From Armatimonadota bacterium (GTDB lineage Bacteria; Armatimonadota; Chthonomonadetes; Chthonomonadales; CAJBBX01): a stretch of 62,547 nt of DNA. Shown piece after piece: positions 4,356-60,690 of the stretch; positions within the stretch are counted from its first letter, which is position 1, and the number at the start of each line of letters is the position of its first letter. The notes under the pieces are model-generated. The model was not told where the DNA came from. It searched no databases and saw only the letters and a list, made by a program, of their open reading frames with translations. Made by a program: the position numbers and the translations under genes. The DNA is taken from positions 1 to 62,547 of the forward strand of contig JAPLCQ010000078.1 in assembly GCA_026392115.1 (NCBI GenBank). Direction: 5' to 3'.

Positions 4356-6872
4356 ATGTCGGAGTCCGAACCCACGCTCTACTACATTCCTCATACCCAC
4401 TGGGAAGGCGCCGTGTTCCAGACCCGCGATGCGTACCTCGACATGGGTCTGGCGAACATCACCCGTGCGCTGGCCCTGCTCCGCGCACGGTCGGACGCCC
4501 GGTTCGTGCTGGACCAGGTCTGCTACGTCAAGCCCTACCTGGAGCGCCACCCGCACGAGGCGGCCGATTTCCGCCGGTTTGTTGATGAGGGACGGCTGGC
4601 CATCGTGGGCGGCACCGATGTGATGCTGGACGTGAACATGCCAGGGGGCGAGTCGTTCGTGCGCCAGGCGCTCTACGGCAAGCGCTGGTTCCGCGAGGCC
4701 CTGGGCGTCGACGTGAAGGTGAGCTGGCAGCTCGACACGTTCGGCCACCACGCCCAGATGCCCCAGCTCCTGCGGCAGGCGGGTTTCGACTCGTTCTGGT
4801 TCTTCAGGGGCGTCCCGAGCCGGCAGACGCCGAGCGAGTTCGTCTGGGAGGGCCTCGACGGTACGCGCATCCCCGCCTACTGGCTCCAGCACAGCTACGC
4901 GGTCGCCTACGGCTCGCCGCACACGCTGCCCGAGTTCACCGCATTCATGCGCGGCCGTTACGACAGCCTGGGCGGCAACACGCCCCACGCCGCGCGCGTG
5001 GCTCCCTCCGGCGCCGACGTCTGCGAACCCGAAGAGCATGTGCCGGGACTGGCCGCGCGGATGAACGCGGACCCCGACGCCGGCCTGAAGGTGGTCGTGT
5101 CCGTTCCCGCGGACTACGAGGCGGAGGTGGCGCTGCGCGGCGAACCGCCCACGCTCAAGTGCGAGCTGAACCCCGTGTTCCAGGGCATCTACAGCAGCCG
5201 CATCGAGCTGAAGCAGCGCACCCGCGAACTCGAGGAGATGCTCACGGGCGCCGAGAAGCTGGGGGTCATGCTCCAGGCCGCCGGCAGGCCCACCGATGAC
5301 CGTCGGCTCTGGCAGGGCTGGGAGCCCATGCTCTTCAACCAGGCCCACGACATCATGTCCGGCGTGCTCACGGACCGTGTCTACGAAGACACCCTCGGCG
5401 GCTACGACCATTCGCGCCGCATCGCCTCGGCCGAGGGCGAGGACCGGCTCCGGGCCTACGTCGGCGCCGTCGACACGCGCGGCTCGGGCATTCCCATCTT
5501 CGTAACGAACCTGCTGGGCTTCGCCCGGACCGATGTGGCCCGAGCCACCGTGGGCCTGACCGCGCCCGGAGTGCGCGGCCTGCGCCTGACGGGTCCCGAC
5601 GGCCGCGAGACGCCGGTGCAGATCGAGCAGGCCGCGGGCAGGCCCGACGGCACGCTGGTCGAGGCCGGCATCGCCTTCCTGGCCGCCGACGTGCCCGCGC
5701 TGGGCCATGCCGTCTACCGCCTGGAGACGCTCGGCACGGCCGTACCCGGCGCCAGGCCCGAGCCGACACCCGAGCCGGCCAGCTGCATCGAGACCGACCT
5801 CCTTCGCGTCGAAGTGGACGCCGCGGGCGCGATCACGAGCCTGCTCAACAAGGCCGACGGCGTGCAGGCCCTATCCGCTCCGGGCAATGTGGTGGCCCGG
5901 CAGGAGGATCGCGGCGACTTCTGGGAGCCCTACAAGCCGCTGGACGGCGGCAGCCGCATCGCCATGACCGATCGCCACCCGGCGCCCGCGGTCGGCGAGG
6001 CCGAGTTCAGCACCGACGAGGCGGCCGAGGGCGTCACCGTGCTGCGAGGGCCGGTCTACTCCGAGGTCTCCGTGGCCCACGGCTTCGGCAAGGGCAGTTT
6101 CGCCACCAGGGTCCGCGTCTACGAGGGATTGCCGCGGGTGGAGGTCCGCACCAGCCTCCTGAACAACGACCACTCGGTGCGGTACCGGGCCCTCTTCCCC
6201 ACGGGCATGACCGAGGCCGCCAACCTGCATGAGATTCCTTTCGGCGCCATCGAGCGGCCCGAGGGCATCGAGTTCCCGGCGCAGAACTGGTTCAGCGCCG
6301 GCCAGGGCGGCCGGGGCTTGGCGATCCTCAACCGGGGGCTGCCCGGCGCGAACACGGCCGACGGGGTGATGATGGTCTCGCTCTTCCGCAGCGCCTGCAT
6401 CGTGGCGTACGGATACGGGGGCGGCTACGGGCCGGGCATGTCGTCCGACTCCGGATACATGATGGGCAAGGAGCTCACATTCGACTACGCCCTCGTCCCG
6501 CATGGCGGCGACGCCTTCGCCGCGCAGATCCCGCAGCAGGGGCAGGCGCTGAACTCGCCGCTGCGTGCCGCGCCTGCCGCCTCCGGCGAGGGCGCGTTGC
6601 CGCCGGTCTGGGGCCTCCTGGCCGTCGATGCGCCCAACGTGCTGGTCTCGACCGTGCGCAACAGCGAGAACGGCGGCGCCGTGGTGCGGTTCTACGAGGC
6701 GGCCGGGCAGGCGGCTCCGGACGTGCGCGTTCGGTTCGCGGCGCCGGTCGCTTCGGTGGAGGAGGTGAACCTGCTGGAGGAGGAGGCCCGGCCGCTGGCC
6801 CTCGACGGCGATACGGTCAGCGTGGGGCTCTCCGCCTTCCAGATCCGCACCCTGCGGTTCCGCCTAGCGTAG
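4356..6872 (+). CDS. Glycoside hydrolase family 38 alpha-mannosidase
   Basis: An 838-residue enzyme without a signal peptide, expected to hydrolyse alpha-mannosides by a retaining, zinc-dependent mechanism. The start is ATG 4356, preceded by GAGGAGG at 4344-4350. GH38 landmarks are HTHWEG at 13-18, QLDTFGHH with the nucleophile Asp at 127, and FNQAHD with the zinc-ligand His at 331; beta-sandwich domains fill the C-terminal half. The usual HxHWD zinc motif reads HxHWE here, so Glu17 takes the place of the ligand Asp. I believe some bacterial GH38 members share this, but it is worth checking. The gene is divergent from the surface-glycan operon and overlaps the end of the convergent downstream gene by 9 bases. 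It probably degrades oligosaccharides imported into the cytoplasm. Confidence 0.92.
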   Translation: MSESEPTLYYIPHTHWEGAVFQTRDAYLDMGLANITRALALLRARSDARFVLDQVCYVKPYLERHPHEAADFRRFVDEGRLAIVGGTDVMLDVNMPGGESFVRQALYGKRWFREALGVDVKVSWQLDTFGHHAQMPQLLRQAGFDSFWFFRGVPSRQTPSEFVWEGLDGTRIPAYWLQHSYAVAYGSPHTLPEFTAFMRGRYDSLGGNTPHAARVAPSGADVCEPEEHVPGLAARMNADPDAGLKVVVSVPADYEAEVALRGEPPTLKCELNPVFQGIYSSRIELKQRTRELEEMLTGAEKLGVMLQAAGRPTDDRRLWQGWEPMLFNQAHDIMSGVLTDRVYEDTLGGYDHSRRIASAEGEDRLRAYVGAVDTRGSGIPIFVTNLLGFARTDVARATVGLTAPGVRGLRLTGPDGRETPVQIEQAAGRPDGTLVEAGIAFLAADVPALGHAVYRLETLGTAVPGARPEPTPEPASCIETDLLRVEVDAAGAITSLLNKADGVQALSAPGNVVARQEDRGDFWEPYKPLDGGSRIAMTDRHPAPAVGEAEFSTDEAAEGVTVLRGPVYSEVSVAHGFGKGSFATRVRVYEGLPRVEVRTSLLNNDHSVRYRALFPTGMTEAANLHEIPFGAIERPEGIEFPAQNWFSAGQGGRGLAILNRGLPGANTADGVMMVSLFRSACIVAYGYGGGYGPGMSSDSGYMMGKELTFDYALVPHGGDAFAAQIPQQGQALNSPLRAAPAASGEGALPPVWGLLAVDAPNVLVSTVRNSENGGAVVRFYEAAGQAAPDVRVRFAAPVASVEEVNLLEEEARPLALDGDTVSVGLSAFQIRTLRFRLA

Positions 6873-53150: not shown

Positions 53151-54221
53151 ATGTCCAGGACCGGAACCCGCCCAATGAGCCCATTGCACGCGGCCGCGCA
53201 GACGGTTCTACATCTCAGCCCGCAGTTGGCACGGGCTGTCTCGACCCGACTGAACGTCGGCGGCGCCGCCGCTCCTCGCAGGGCGGCCGATGACGACAAC
53301 GCCCACCACCTCGCCTATCTGGCCGAGGCCATACGCACGGGCGATGACGCGCTCTTCGTCAACTATGCGCAGTGGCTCAAGGTGCGCTACGCCACCAAGC
53401 CGCAGGCCGGCCAGTCCGTGGAGTCGGTCCTGCAGGCGCTGCGGCACGCCATCATGGAGTGCGCGCCCGGAGCGACGGCCGGCGCCGCCGTTCCCATCCT
53501 CGACACGGCCCTGGCGGCGCTCCCCGGTTCGCCGGACACGGCGCCGAGCTACCTCGATCCTGACGCGCCCTACGCCGCAACGGCCCGCCGGTACCTGGAC
53601 AGGCTCCTTGCCGCCGACCGCAAGCAGGCGGCCGACCTGGTGCTGCAGTCCGCTGGCGACGGGGCGCCGATCCGCGACATCTATGTCCATGTCTTCCAGC
53701 CCTGCCTCCGCGAAGTGGGCCGCCTGTGGCAGATGAACAGAATCTCCGTGGCGCAGGAGCACTACTGCACCGCCGCCACCCAGCTTGTCATGGCCCAGCT
53801 CTGCCCGTACGTCTTCTCAGGGGTCACGTCCGATCGCCGAATGGTGGCCACGTGCGTAGGAGGCGAGCTCCACGAACTGGGCATTCGGATGGTGACGGAC
53901 CTCATGGAGATGGCCGGCTGGGACACCTACTACCTCGGCGCCAACATGACCACGGACGGCATCCTGGCGGCCATCGAGGAGTACGACGCGCACCTGCTGG
54001 CCCTCTCGGCCACGATGGTCTATCACGTGCATCTGGTGGAGGAGACCATCGCGGCGGTGCGCGCTTCGGAACGGACCCGCGCGGTCAGCGTGATGGTGGG
54101 CGGGTTCCCATTTCTCGTCTCGCCCGATCTCTGGCGAACCGTGGGGGGCGACGGTTTCGCGCCGGACCCGGATACCGCGATCGCCGTCGCCGACCGCCTC
54201 GTCCCAGGAGGGAGTACATGA
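53151..54221 (+). CDS. CarH-like cobalamin-binding sensor protein
   Basis: A 356-residue soluble protein. Residues about 140-220 are the helical cap of a B12-binding sensor, with the CarH-type motif W-X9-EH (W193, E203-H204). Residues about 230-350 are the cobalamin-binding Rossmann domain, with ELHELG (cobalt-ligand His at H241) in place of DxHxxG. There is no recognisable MerR-type DNA-binding domain at the N-terminus. Light- or oxidant-dependent cobalamin chemistry would drive a conformational change. The stop overlaps the kinase start by 4 bases (ATGA). The start is ATG 53151, with 53175 as an alternative. Confidence 0.85.
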   Translation: MSRTGTRPMSPLHAAAQTVLHLSPQLARAVSTRLNVGGAAAPRRAADDDNAHHLAYLAEAIRTGDDALFVNYAQWLKVRYATKPQAGQSVESVLQALRHAIMECAPGATAGAAVPILDTALAALPGSPDTAPSYLDPDAPYAATARRYLDRLLAADRKQAADLVLQSAGDGAPIRDIYVHVFQPCLREVGRLWQMNRISVAQEHYCTAATQLVMAQLCPYVFSGVTSDRRMVATCVGGELHELGIRMVTDLMEMAGWDTYYLGANMTTDGILAAIEEYDAHLLALSATMVYHVHLVEETIAAVRASERTRAVSVMVGGFPFLVSPDLWRTVGGDGFAPDPDTAIAVADRLVPGGST

Positions 54222-55300
54222 GCGCCGGTATCGTCGGAACCGCAGGCGTGGTGGTTCTATGCACTGCGGAAGGCATGGTCCAGGAGGTGCTTCACGATTC
54301 CATCGGATTGGCGCCGCAGGTAGGGCGGCCCTTCACTCAGATCGCGGAACCGGAGAGCCTCGCCAAGCTTGAGGCGTTCCAACAAGCGCTGGTTGAACAG
54401 GGCGCCGTGCTGGGTTGGGAGATCAACGTCGCCATCGACGGTGTCACCGTATGCCTCGGCCTCAACGGCGCCGTAACCTCGACCGGCATCTTGCTGATGG
54501 GTTCCGCCGTACCGCTGGGCCTCTACGACGAGGTGACGCGGCTGAACAACATGCTGGCCAACCTGCAGCGGAAGATGGCGAAACAGAACGTCGCGATGGA
54601 TCGCCTGAACGCGCTGAAGGATCAGTTCGTGGGCATGGCCGCCCATGCCCTGCAGACGCCCAACGGCGCCATTTCCGTGCTCGCCGAGGCGCTCCTGGAG
54701 GAGTTGGATCCGACGCTGTCCGAAGTGCACCGGGAGTACCTGGAGACCATCCGGTCGTCAGCCGAGTACGTGCGCGTCCTTGCGGGTATCTACCTGGACG
54801 CCGCGGCCATCGGCGCCGGCGCCATGCGCTTCACCTTCGCGCCGACCGACCTCGCCGACCTGGTGAGCCGGAGCGTCAAGCTGCATCGCACCGTCTCTGC
54901 GCGGCTCCACGACAGCGCGGCGCTGACGATCGAGGGCTCCGGCCCGCCACTGCTGCTGGATAAGGGCAAGATCGAGGAGGCGCTGCACAATCTGCTGGAC
55001 AACGCCGACAAGCACTCGCCTGCCGGGGCCCTCGTTGAGATCGACCTGGCCTTCGGCGAGGAATCGGTGCGGCTGAGGGTGACCGATCACGGCCAGGGCA
55101 TGTCGCCGGAGGAGCGAGCCGGCTTGTTCCAACCCTACCAGGTTACCGGCGCGTCCAAGGACAAGACGGGCGTGGGTCTGGGCCTGAGCATCGTGCGCAG
55201 GATCGTCGAGGGGCATGGCGGCAACGTGCGGCTCGAGGAGACCCCGGGCGGCGGAGCAACGTTCGTGGTGACGCTGCCTCTCCGCGTCGCGCCCGTCTAG
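54218..55300 (+). CDS. Histidine kinase coupled to the cobalamin-binding protein
   Basis: A 360-residue soluble kinase. An N-terminal PAS-like segment (residues about 5-100) is followed by a dimerisation helix with H143 in AAHALQTPNG and a HATPase_c domain with N (NLLDNADKHSP), G1 (DHGQGM) and G2 (GVGLGLSIV) boxes. The residue after the phospho-accepting His is Ala instead of the usual Glu/Asp. It overlaps the cobalamin-binding gene by 4 bases. No response regulator is encoded in the pair; the downstream hybrid kinases carry receivers and could be partners. Confidence 0.85.
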   Translation: MSAGIVGTAGVVVLCTAEGMVQEVLHDSIGLAPQVGRPFTQIAEPESLAKLEAFQQALVEQGAVLGWEINVAIDGVTVCLGLNGAVTSTGILLMGSAVPLGLYDEVTRLNNMLANLQRKMAKQNVAMDRLNALKDQFVGMAAHALQTPNGAISVLAEALLEELDPTLSEVHREYLETIRSSAEYVRVLAGIYLDAAAIGAGAMRFTFAPTDLADLVSRSVKLHRTVSARLHDSAALTIEGSGPPLLLDKGKIEEALHNLLDNADKHSPAGALVEIDLAFGEESVRLRVTDHGQGMSPEERAGLFQPYQVTGASKDKTGVGLGLSIVRRIVEGHGGNVRLEETPGGGATFVVTLPLRVAPV

Positions 55301-58077
55301 CCCGCGGGCGCGTTCCTCTCCGGGCCGCTGAGCGACCGGCGGACCGCTTTGAGCAGGTCGTCCCGAGTGAAGGGCTTGCCCAGGAACTCGGCCCCCGCCG
55401 CCAGGACGCCCCGCTCCATCACGACGTCGTCCGTGTAGCCCGACATGAAGATGCGCCGCAGGCCCGGACGCTGCTCGGAGAGGCTCTGAGCCAGCTCGTC
55501 GCCGGTCTGGCCGGGCATCATGATGTCCGTGATCAGCAGGTCGATCGTGCCGGCGAACTCCGATGCCAGTTTGACCGCCTCCTCGGGTGTCGGCGCCGGC
55601 AGCACCGTGTACCCCGCGGCGGTCAGGAAGCGCCGGACGGTCGCCAGAATCGACCGCTCGTCCTCGCAGACCAGGATGGTGCCGCTCTGTTGCGGCGTCC
55701 CTCCGACGGGCTCGGCGATGGAAATCTGGTCCTTCGGCGCAGGTTCGACCCCGGCCACGCGGGGCAGCATCACGCGGAACACGGAGCCCGCGCCGGGCTG
55801 GGATTCAATGTCGACGTAGCCGCGCGCCTGCTTCACGATGCCGTAGACGGTGGCCAGGCCCAGTCCGGTGCCATGGCCTATGCCCTTTGTCGTGAAGAAG
55901 GGCTCGAAGAGGCGTTGCACCGTCGCTTGATCCATGCCGCACCCGTCGTCTCGGCAGGCGAGGACGGCATAGGCCCCGGCGGACATTCGCCCGTCGTGGC
56001 GGGCCTCGGCCTCGGTTACCTCGATCGCGCAGGTCGACAGCACGATGTGGCCTGAGCCCGAGACCGCGTCCCTGGCGTTGACGACGAGGTTCATGACGAC
56101 CTGGTCGAACTGCGCCGGGTCGATCAGCACGGTGGCCGGCTGGTCGGACGGCGACCAGGTCAGCTCGATCGTCGGGCCGATCAGCCGCCGGAGCATCGCG
56201 AGCGTCTTGCCGACGATGTCGTTCAGGTCCGTGTGCCGAGGCGCGGTGACCTGCTTCCGCGAGAAGGCCAGCAGCTGGCGGGTGAGCGACGTGGCCCGGC
56301 CCGCGTCCTGCGCCAGGGCGTCGAGGTACTCCCTGGCGCCGTGGTCGGCGGCCACATGGTCGCGGGCCAGGTCGATGGCGTGAACCATGCCGGTGAGCAG
56401 GTTGTTGAAGTCGTGGGCCACGCCGCCGGCCAGACGCCCCATGGCGTCCATCTTCTGCGCGTGGAGCAGTTGCGTCTCCATCTGCGCCCGCTGCTCCTCG
56501 GCCCGCTTGCGCTCGACGATCTCCTCCTGCGCCTGCCGATAGAGCTCGGCGTTGCTGAACGCCACGGCCGCGGGAGCCGCCAGGGCCTGGAGCAGTCCCA
56601 GGTGCTCGGCCGTGTAGGCGTTCTCCTCCAGGGTGATCACCTGGATGACGCCGCGCACGCTTCCATCGATCGTCATCGGCACCAGCATCGCCGACCGCGG
56701 AACGCCCTCCTCGTCGAACCGCTGATCATCCGACTGGGCGATCCGCCCGCTGTCGTCCAGATAGCAGGACGGGGGGGGTCGCTTCAGACGGGCGCGGTAG
56801 TCGTTGCTCAGGATGGGCTCGCCGCTTCGGATCACGTCGCCCTGTATGCTGCTCCCCTCGGCGCCCAGGGGCAACGACGGCAGTGTCGCCGGGTCATGCT
56901 CATGGTCGCCGATGATCGCGAGGAGGCACCGAATGACCCGATCTTCCTGCGAGTAGGAGGAGACGGTGACACCGTCGCACGGCATCAGGTCGTGGACCCA
57001 GTTTCGCAGGCATCGAAGCACCTCGCCGACATCCAAGGCCCGGCTCAACTGCTGGCTCGCCTGGCTCAGAGCCATGAGGCGGCTCTGGCTTCGGCGCAGG
57101 GCCTCGCGGTCCTTGTCTTGCTGAACGCGCGACCGCAGCGCCCTGATGCCGTAAGCGACGTCCTTGGCCAGCCCGGCCAGCATCTCGCCTTCGCCGGGCT
57201 CCAGCGGCACGCTCCCTTCGGCATCGATCATGATCGCGCCGATGACTTCGCCGTCGACCTCGAGCGGCAGGGCGACGGCGGAGTCGCATTGGCGCCTGAG
57301 TTCGGTCGCCGTCCCGCCGCCCGGGGTCCGGGGCATCTCCCAGGAGTAGATCGGCTCGCGTGCGTTGAGCGCCGCCGCCGCCGGGCCGCACCGATCCACC
57401 GTGAAGCTCGGATCATCCAGGCAGCAGAAAGCGCAGCCGAAGTGGGCCACGGGCAGCAAGGGCCGCTCGGGCCCGCCATCGACGAGCCCCGCGCGAACGC
57501 CCCGGTAGTCGCCGCGTTCAGCGAGCAGGCGGCAGACGTCGGTCAGCAGGGCCCCCTCGTCCGTGGCGCGAACCACGGCCCGCCTGCACTCGCCGATGGT
57601 GGTCAGGTACCGGTTGGCCCGCAGCGCCGCGCGCTCGGACAAGACGCGGCGGCCCACGTCGCGGATGGCGACAATGGCGCCGGGGCCGCCCTCAACGGCA
57701 AAGGGAGCGGCGGACACGTCCACGGGCGTCTCGGCGCCGTTTTCGTGCAGCAGGGTCTGGGTCACCGGCGCGACCGGGTGCAGCAGGCCGACGACCGCGT
57801 CCAGGTGCCGCGCCACGGCATCGCGCTCGGTCGGAACGACCAGACTGGCCAGCGGCCTGCCCAGGAGCGCTTCCGGGCTGTGCACGCCCACGAGCCGGGC
57901 GAGCGGGAGGTTGGCAGTGACGATTCGACCGGCGGAGATCAGGCACGAGGGGTCCGGCGACTGGAGACAGGCTGCGCCGACCGAGTCGGTCGCCTGCCCC
58001 GAGGCCTCGTAGCCTTGCGCCGCGGCGAAGCGACCTGCGTCGATTCCGGCCGGGCCATGGTCTCTGGGTTCTCGCAT
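55297..58077 (-). CDS. Hybrid sensor histidine kinase (PAS-GAF-GAF-HK-receiver)
   Basis: A 926-residue cytoplasmic sensor with no transmembrane segment. PAS is at about 35-145, the first GAF at about 165-310, the second at about 335-520, then a coiled coil, H-box [11 protein letters not shown] with H555, HATPase_c ([25 protein letters not shown]) and a C-terminal receiver with phospho-acceptor D851 ([10 protein letters not shown]). The first GAF has a cysteine cluster (C215, C218, C219 and C230) that might bind a metal, haem or Fe-S cluster. The gene converges with the kinase at 54218-55300, overlapping by 4 bases. It is preceded by its own GGGTATAAAG promoter motif. Confidence 0.9.
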
Positions 58078-58236: not shown

Positions 58237-60690
58237 CTAACGGTCCAGCACCTCGCGGACCTTGGTCAGCAGGTCATCCCGCGAGAACGGCTTGCCGAGG
58301 AAGTCGTCGCCGACCCCCGCGGCGCCCAGCTCCCGGATGATGTCGGATGTGTACCCCGACATGAAGAGGCAGCGCAATCCCGGACGCGCCTCCACGAGGC
58401 TCTTCGCCAGCTCGGGGCCCGTGGCGCCGGGCATCATCACGTCCGTGGCCAGCAAGTCGATGGTCCCGGAGAACCCGGATGCCAGCGTGACCGCCTCATC
58501 GGGCGAGGACGCGGCCAGCACGGTGTAACCGGCCGCGGCCAGAAACCTGCGTACGGTCGCCAGGATGCTTCGCTCGTCGTCGCAGACGAGAACGGTCTCG
58601 CCCCGCCCCGACTGCCGAGTCCCCGGCGCCGCGGCGCGCTCGGGAGCCGCCGGCTCGGCGTCCGCTCCCGCCAGGCGCGGCAGTATGATGCGGAACACGG
58701 AACCGGAGCCGACCTCGCTCTCCACATTGATGAAGCCGTCGGCCTGTTTCACGATGCCGTAGACCGTCGCCAGGCCGAGGCCCGTGCCCCGGCCCAGGGC
58801 CTTGGTCGTGTAGAACGGCTCGAACATGCGGTCGTACGTCTGGTCGTCGATGCCGCAGCCATCGTCGCGGCACTCGAGCACAGCGTAGTCGCCTGCCGGG
58901 ACGCGGGCGCCATGGAACTCCCCGGTCCCGTCATAGCTCGCGCGGTAGACCGAGAGGGCGATGGTTCCGGACCCGGACAGGGCGTCGCTCGCGTTGACCA
59001 CAAGGTTCATGACCACCTGATCAAGCTGCGTCGGGTCAACGAGTACGACCGCCGGCTCGCCGCACGGCGTCCATGTCAGGGCGACGGCCGGTCCGATCAT
59101 CCGCCGGACCATCTCCAGCGTCTTGCCCACCGCGTCGCTGATGTCGATGCGTCGGCGGCTGACGACCTGCTTGCGGGAGAACGCCAGCAGTTGGCGCGTG
59201 AGCGCCGTCGCACGTTCGGCGTCATGGGCCAGGGCCTCGAGGTGGTCCCTGCCGCCATGGCCCGGCGGCACGTGGTCGCGCGTCAGCTCGATGGAGTGCA
59301 CCATGCCTGTCAGTAGGTTGTTGAAGTCATGGGCCACCCCGCCGGCGACGAGGCCCATGGCATTGAGCCGCTCCGTCGATTGGATGTGCGCCTCCATCTG
59401 CGCCCGCTGCTCCTGGGCCCGCTTGCGCTCGACGATCTCCTCCTGCGCCCGCCGGTAGAGCTCCGCGTTGCTGAAGGCCACGGCCGCGGGCGCCGCCAGC
59501 GCCTGCAGGAGTTCGAGATGCTCGTCGCTGTACGCATCCTCCACATCCGTGACGATCTGAATGACGCCTCGCACGACGCCGTCCAGGATCATCGGCGCCA
59601 TCAGGGCGGAACGGGGCGATTCGTCGTCATCGACGTACGGCTCGGTGTTCGTATCGACGCGGCCGGTCTCATCGAGATAGCAGGCTGCCGAGCTCTCCCG
59701 CAGCCGCGCGCGGTAGTCGTTCACCACGATGGGCCGCCCGCTCAGGATCACGGAGCTCTGGAGGCCCTTGCCCGTGGCGCTGACCGGCATCGGCGGCATT
59801 TCGGCCGGATCGAACGCATGGTCGCCCATGACGGCGAAGACGCACCGAATCAGCTGATCATCGGGCGAGTATGAGGAGACGATCATGCCGCTGCAGGGCA
59901 TCAGGTTCCGCACCCAGCCGTGGAGGCACCGAAGCACCTCGTCGACGTCCAGCGCGCGGCTCAGTTGCCGGCCGGCCTGGCTCAGCGCGATCAGGCGGCT
60001 CCGGCTCCGGTGCAGGTCTTCGCGGTCCCTGTCTTGGGTCGCCCGGGCGCGCAGCGTCTGGATGCCGTACGAGACGTCCTCGGCCAGGCCGGCCAGCGCC
60101 TCGGCTTCGCCGGGTTCCAGTGGAAGGCCGCCCTCGACATCGATGACGACGGCGCCCATCGCATCGCCCGCAAGGGTGAGCGGCACGGCGACGACGGAGT
60201 CGCAGCCGCATTGCGCGCCGGCGCCCGCGGCTTCGTCCGCCAACTCCCAGGAGAGGACCGGAACCCGCGCCTCCAGCGCCCGCGCGGCCGGCGGGCAATG
60301 CGGCATCGGCGCGCCGTGGTCGTCCAGGCACCGGGGAGCGCGGCCCGCCCGCGTCGCGAGGCTCAAACGACCATCGGTCGAGTCGCCAGGGAAGCTTGCG
60401 TGCGCGTTGCGGTATCCGCCATGCTCCACCAGGATGCGGCAGACGTCGGTCAGAAGCGAGAGTTCGTCGGGCGCCCGCACCACGGCGCGCCTGCACTCGC
60501 TGATGGCGGCCAGGAAGCGCCTGGCCCGAAGCGGGGAGCGCCCCGAACGGACGCGGCGCGCCGACTCGCCCGAGGCATGGGAAACGTGACCGGTAGCCGG
60601 AGCCGGATGGGTCGGTTGCGGGCCCTCCGCGGCGGCCCCATCGGGGTCCAGGTTGGCGAGTTCCGGCTTCTTGCTTTGTCCTCGGCACAT
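58237..60690 (-). CDS. Hybrid sensor histidine kinase (GAF-GAF-HK-receiver), paralogue
   Basis: An 817-residue paralogue of the neighbouring kinase without the N-terminal PAS. Two GAF domains (about 65-210 and 235-410), a coiled coil, H454 in [11 protein letters not shown], the HATPase_c domain and a receiver (LLATDVMMPG). Only parts of the Cys cluster are conserved (C121 and C132, plus C161/C163). The tandem arrangement with separate promoters and terminators suggests gene duplication followed by sensor divergence. Confidence 0.9.
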   Translation of the reverse strand: MCRGQSKKPELANLDPDGAAAEGPQPTHPAPATGHVSHASGESARRVRSGRSPLRARRFLAAISECRRAVVRAPDELSLLTDVCRILVEHGGYRNAHASFPGDSTDGRLSLATRAGRAPRCLDDHGAPMPHCPPAARALEARVPVLSWELADEAAGAGAQCGCDSVVAVPLTLAGDAMGAVVIDVEGGLPLEPGEAEALAGLAEDVSYGIQTLRARATQDRDREDLHRSRSRLIALSQAGRQLSRALDVDEVLRCLHGWVRNLMPCSGMIVSSYSPDDQLIRCVFAVMGDHAFDPAEMPPMPVSATGKGLQSSVILSGRPIVVNDYRARLRESSAACYLDETGRVDTNTEPYVDDDESPRSALMAPMILDGVVRGVIQIVTDVEDAYSDEHLELLQALAAPAAVAFSNAELYRRAQEEIVERKRAQEQRAQMEAHIQSTERLNAMGLVAGGVAHDFNNLLTGMVHSIELTRDHVPPGHGGRDHLEALAHDAERATALTRQLLAFSRKQVVSRRRIDISDAVGKTLEMVRRMIGPAVALTWTPCGEPAVVLVDPTQLDQVVMNLVVNASDALSGSGTIALSVYRASYDGTGEFHGARVPAGDYAVLECRDDGCGIDDQTYDRMFEPFYTTKALGRGTGLGLATVYGIVKQADGFINVESEVGSGSVFRIILPRLAGADAEPAAPERAAAPGTRQSGRGETVLVCDDERSILATVRRFLAAAGYTVLAASSPDEAVTLASGFSGTIDLLATDVMMPGATGPELAKSLVEARPGLRCLFMSGYTSDIIRELGAAGVGDDFLGKPFSRDDLLTKVREVLDR

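Follow-up and report, generated by a model that had tools for sequence, protein, structure and literature searches.

A candidate split photocobilin-type receptor: a globin-B12 sensor gene overlapping a histidine kinase gene in an Armatimonadota bacterium

Two overlapping genes of an Armatimonadota bacterium most likely encode a two-protein AdoCbl photo- or redox switch, in which a cobalamin-binding sensor would control a phosphatase-biased histidine kinase in trans. The complete proposal, a split photocobilin-type receptor whose sensor acts in trans on such a kinase, is given a probability of about one half. Sequence evidence establishes the domains and motifs, the conserved pairing of the two genes and a fused homologue.

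The sensor gene lies at positions 53175–54221 of the window (the whole stretch of DNA analysed, 62,547 nucleotides), on the forward strand like all features of the pair described below, and encodes 348 aa. An alternative start at 53151 would give 356 aa, but the start at 53175 is the likely one, since in the orthologues of L004 and L005 a Met lies at this position or close to it, with little similarity further upstream. Pfam recognised a B12-binding_2 four-helix cap (PF02607, 3.9e-15; 53583–53801) followed by a B12-binding Rossmann domain (PF02310, 4.5e-19; 53838–54152). The W-X9-EH and ExHxxG motifs announced by the sequence-only reading are both found in this frame, as W185-X9-E195H196 and E231xH233xxG236 (numbering from the M at 53175), and so are both halves of the cobalamin-binding module. 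The cap carries GRLW (182–185) and EH (195–196), and the Rossmann domain the predicted Co ligand His233 (GELHELG). The sensor thus has the B12-binding module with W-X9-EH and Co-ligand His of CarH/LitR, as well as the W/EH/ExH B12 domain of photocobilins. Three of the four motifs of the SignatureFinder light-responsive cobalamin domain are present: GxxW (GRLW), EH and GxxH (GELH). The missing one is GxxxP, which belongs to the published light signature and is replaced by GANMT in the window and by GANMN or GANMT in the orthologues; its Pro is kept in 15 of the 16 other sensors tabulated. The second His of the CarH type (H132, bis-His light state) is also absent from the sensor, Q186 being found after W185, so that a bis-His light state would not be expected. 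The gene is under purifying selection, with a dN/dS of 0.12–0.16 across three species. An Rfam scan of the window at the gathering threshold reported neither a cobalamin riboswitch nor any other RNA family, and no relative was found in a scan of viral contigs. The organism's own genome holds two further B12-domain homologues, at 25–26% identity (G000:C36:29600-30211 and G000:C159:21681-22337).

Pfam reports no HTH family in the sensor, in agreement with the earlier claim. A hidden HTH in the N-terminus was considered and none was found, the domain there being positively identified as a globin. This domain is a five-helix globin of the photoglobin/phycobiliprotein type (aa 3–118; 53181–53528). 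The AF2 model of the sensor, made from five sequences with a mean pLDDT of 85.9, places its helices at residues 3–26, 32–55, 58–74, 82–96 and 99–118. Profile A6, built from the N-termini of 16 relatives (the G092 sensor was left out because its N-terminus did not align), matched allophycocyanin at 4.8e-7 and the SasPcob globin at 5.6e-7, and the remaining matches listed were mostly phycobiliproteins. PF00502 was matched individually by five of the 16 N-termini, and not by that of the window. On the basis of these helices, profile matches and PF00502 hits, the N-terminal 120 residues are identified, from sequence and model, as a photoglobin-type globin, so that the sensor combines within one protein the phycobiliprotein-like globin and the B12 domain of photocobilins.

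The partner gene encodes a histidine kinase of 360 aa (54218–55300). Its start codon overlaps the sensor stop at 54221 in the sequence ATGA, as had been noticed before. This overlap and the synteny are kept in three species of the genus (the own one, L004 and L005), the order in L004 and L005 being an upstream aldo/keto reductase, the sensor, the kinase and a downstream hybrid kinase. Homologous pairs of sensor and partner were found in other Armatimonadota, in Azospirillum and in Chloroflexota. The product of the gene after the sensor varies. G033, G092, G249 and two Azospirillum plasmids have a HisKA kinase at this place, and G358 has a HisKA_2 kinase; in G812 it is a hybrid kinase, whereas L007 and G624 encode a GGDEF protein (diguanylate cyclase) and both G636 and G366 a small coil protein. 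In L006 a natural fusion of 955 aa joins globin, B12, coil, HisKA, HATPase and two REC domains. In genomes of the L007 phylum, B12 proteins of more remote relationship have GGDEF proteins after them or, on their flanks, adaptor-only and PAS-coil-STAS-like proteins (STAS was assigned by eye). Homologous sensors without such an adjoining partner occur in G214, Skermanella and G705. The functional coupling of sensor and kinase that had been proposed is strongly supported by the conserved overlap, by the homologous pairs in several phyla and by the one natural fusion. Since close relatives of the pair are found in distant bacteria, the two proteins probably work together.

Some of these loci show features of their own. 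An apparent frameshift divides the partner kinase of A. thermophilum (L036, 6926–8127), whose annotation shows two genes. The small proteins directly after the sensor in L075 (4794–5123) and L076 (4898–5269, both oriented) have the same kind of coil and a Cys-containing LEGLLPICxxCKxxRDDxGYW segment, and that of L076 has no Pfam match. In L082 (G672; 4777–5190, oriented), the globin may be encoded separately, as a small protein beside a globin-less B12 gene. The record of L006 is entitled Klebsiella pneumoniae MAG, a title that is doubtful for the fusion-bearing sequence. The operon has no gene for a response regulator. On the minus strand of the window (55297–58077 and 58237–60690), two GAF-HisKA-HATPase-REC hybrid kinases are encoded in tandem; the first is tail-to-tail with the partner kinase, their ORFs overlapping by 4 bases, and is syntenic in L004 and L005. 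It is conceivable that the receiver domains of the two hybrid kinases are phosphorylation partners of the kinase.

The partners share an adaptor. A coil with the consensus ELTRLNNELxxxQRELAKxNxEL is common to them, and in several it comes after a domain with a PAS-like order of strands and helices, which these have in common as well. In the window, the PAS-like domain spans aa ~10–98 (54245–54511), as judged from homology to partner N-termini elsewhere and from a low-confidence AF2 model in which the pattern is beta-beta-alpha-beta-beta-beta. The kinase model, made from three near-identical sequences, is poor (mean pLDDT 44) and was used only for this N-terminal pattern. Two relatives matched PAS_4, the best at 8e-5. 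The conserved coiled-coil segment YDEVTRLNNMLANLQRKMAKQNVAMDRLNALK follows (aa 103–134; 54524–54619) and is of the kind shared with the kinase and diguanylate cyclase partners. With thresholds of 1e-6 and 1e-8, on which the count depends, an adaptor profile was detected in nine of 691 genomes, five of 291 in Armatimonadota and four of 400 in the phylum of L007 (Dehalococcoidia). Every adaptor locus detected in these 691 genomes adjoins a B12 gene, and none was detected away from one; some of these are self-hits, because the profile was partly built from detected loci, and related genomes are not independent in the count, which covers at least three lineages of Armatimonadota.

The catalytic part of the kinase consists of HisKA (9e-8; 54617–54811) and HATPase_c (7e-27; 54962–55285). 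The phospho-His and the ATP-binding motifs are present, the N, G1 and G2 motifs being intact by Pfam and motif reading. The H-box reads H143-A144-L-Q-T147 (codons 54644–54658). The acidic residue that follows the phospho-His, needed for HisKA kinase activity, is absent, with A144 in three of three orthologues, and the Thr or Asn required at His+4 for phosphatase activity is kept as T147. Among the other HisKA H-boxes read in the own genome, E or D follows the phospho-His in 27 of 28. In CrdS, HK853, HK4262 and HK1190, exchange of this acid for Ala removed the kinase activity and left the phosphatase activity in place (PMC3510030). The kinase gene is under purifying selection (dN/dS 0.15–0.22, three species), and its coil and HisKA are the most constrained part (0.04–0.125), which argues that Ala144 is not a sign of decay. 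The kinase of this lineage therefore appears, from its H-box, to be devoid of the residue needed for autophosphorylation, and we infer a phosphatase-biased or sensor-dependent enzyme. Phosphorylation as the output, the last claim of the sequence-only reading, is thus doubtful, given Ala144 in the three orthologues, the mutants cited above and the acid kept elsewhere in the genome.

What the sensor perceives can be read in other ways. A dual-chromophore photocobilin, binding biliverdin as well as AdoCbl, would agree with the presence of the globin, whose D41 and W67 are in register with Asp270 and Trp296 of SasPcob, the biliverdin contacts (the residue offset is inferred from chain numbering). 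The Cys of CxxD is lost from the sensor globin (ADDD), Ala or Val being found there, and is kept in G033, Azospirillum, G624 and others; SasPcob is also devoid of it, which speaks for the dual-chromophore reading. However, the first globin helices diverge from those of relatives, and no heme oxygenase (PF01126) was found in the own genome (98.6% complete) or in six other Armatimonadota genomes tested, which makes a bilin in the sensor unlikely. A second chromophore is thus quite improbable, and a B12-only sensor would be expected in this organism. Sensing of the cobalamin form or redox state (AdoCbl versus hydroxo- or no cobalamin, oxygen) instead of light, with the same contact to the kinase, deserves more weight, while still being the less probable alternative. 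It would fit with the loss of the GxxxP Pro, which in CtMerR touches the adenosyl group across the dimer, with the loss of the globin Cys and the lack of a detected heme oxygenase, and with Q186 in place of the CarH-type second His. The organism can, moreover, make AdoCbl, as its genome contains a PduO-type adenosyltransferase. Against this, the sensor retains the Trp, EH and GxxH of the light signature; SasPcob, which is photoactive, likewise has a Gln at the 132 position; and no metabolic B12 gene was recognised adjoining the sensor.

The output, too, can be read otherwise. Were the kinase an active autokinase despite Ala144, the output would be ordinary phosphorylation. Its intact ATP-binding motifs and the strong purifying selection on HisKA point that way, as does another HisKA protein of the own genome without acid after the phospho-His, L124 (HKF). 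Yet the four enzymes mutated to Ala lost kinase activity, and the kinases of related pairs keep D or E, except that of G249 (His+1 is Asp in G033, G092 and Azospirillum, and H in G249), so that an active autokinase is rated unlikely. By far the least probable reading is that the two genes are neighbours of unrelated function which overlap by chance. Some homologous sensors do stand alone; however, the pairing is kept over several phyla with different output domains, the L006 protein is a fusion, and the adaptor was detected only beside B12 genes.

In the reading that we prefer, a photo- or redox switch acting in trans on a phosphatase-biased kinase, a globin probably free of bilin in this organism would be followed by a CarH-like domain holding AdoCbl base-off, with His233 as the lower ligand and Trp185, Glu195 and His196 around the adenosyl group. 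Light, the presumed trigger, or another removal of the adenosyl group would change the conformation of the sensor or its dimer interface. The sensor probably docks on the PAS-like domain and the coil just before HisKA of the kinase. Under this control an unlinked response regulator would more likely lose its phosphoryl group than receive one, since the kinase has lost in this genus the acid beside the phospho-His; the sign of the output and its target are both presumed here. A wider reading, which we hold more tentatively than the proposal itself, is that of a widespread modular system with a lineage-specific phosphatase: a stand-alone globin-B12 photosensor, joined by a dedicated PAS-like/coiled-coil adaptor to interchangeable outputs (histidine kinases, diguanylate cyclases and HisKA_2 kinases), the kinase described here being a B12- and light-controlled phosphatase. 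Light-sensitive control of kinases or diguanylate cyclases by two proteins would make a useful optogenetic part.

Compared with known systems, the sensor is, by sequence and fold, closer to photocobilins with the globin in front than it is to CarH, and its N-terminal globin takes the place of the HTH. Among solved structures, the photocobilins 8j2x/8j2w resemble it most in sequence (7e-21); CtMerR (8jbs) and the photocobilin 8j2y come next, in this order, and CarH far lower, at about 1e-6. For the fold of the B12 part (residues 131–346), Z is 24.5 with photocobilins versus about 19 with CarH; when the sensor is compared as a whole, the B12 domain fills the match and little is learned about the globin, whose identity rests on profile searches. 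Of the description CarH-like without HTH, the CarH-type B12 domain and the missing HTH were retained, while the protein as a whole proved to be a globin-B12 protein closest to photocobilins. CarH/LitR and the sensor share the B12-binding fold, W-X9-EH and the Co-ligand His; the sensor has a globin in place of the MerR HTH, and Q186 in place of the second His. Membership in CarH was rejected, as both the MerR-type HTH and this His are missing.

AerR and the SCHIC domain of AppA have the same fold as the sensor, with a lower Z (about 20) and a sequence identity of 13–18%. These co-regulators work through protein contact. Their own target is a transcription factor, unlike that proposed for the sensor described here. 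The partner kinase has the HisKA and HATPase_c architecture of PnpS, HrmK and other HisKA kinases, and differs from them by Ala instead of Glu or Asp after the phospho-His and by a PAS-like/coil adaptor tied to B12 genes.

The photocobilins SasPcob and AbDPcob, the best fold match, have the same B12 domain (W/EH/HxxG) with a phycobiliprotein-like globin, and control an enzyme, either in cis or in trans (PMC10979010). Here the globin precedes the B12 domain, an order already recorded for other photocobilins, GxxxP is lost, and the partner is a histidine kinase encoded by an overlapping gene. Stand-alone photocobilins are known, with either order of the two domains, and light altered (activated) a diguanylate cyclase in trans; the role of the stand-alone ones was called unclear, and in vitro action on an enzyme by contact possible (PMC10979010). 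The literature searched showed no pair of a B12 sensor and a separate kinase, the photoglobin paper PMC8717448, which possibly covers such neighbourhoods, being outside its scope. What the present pair adds to the known photocobilins is an adaptor and a kinase partner that is fixed genetically, and with a partner so assigned and a candidate docking module the mechanism in trans becomes directly testable.
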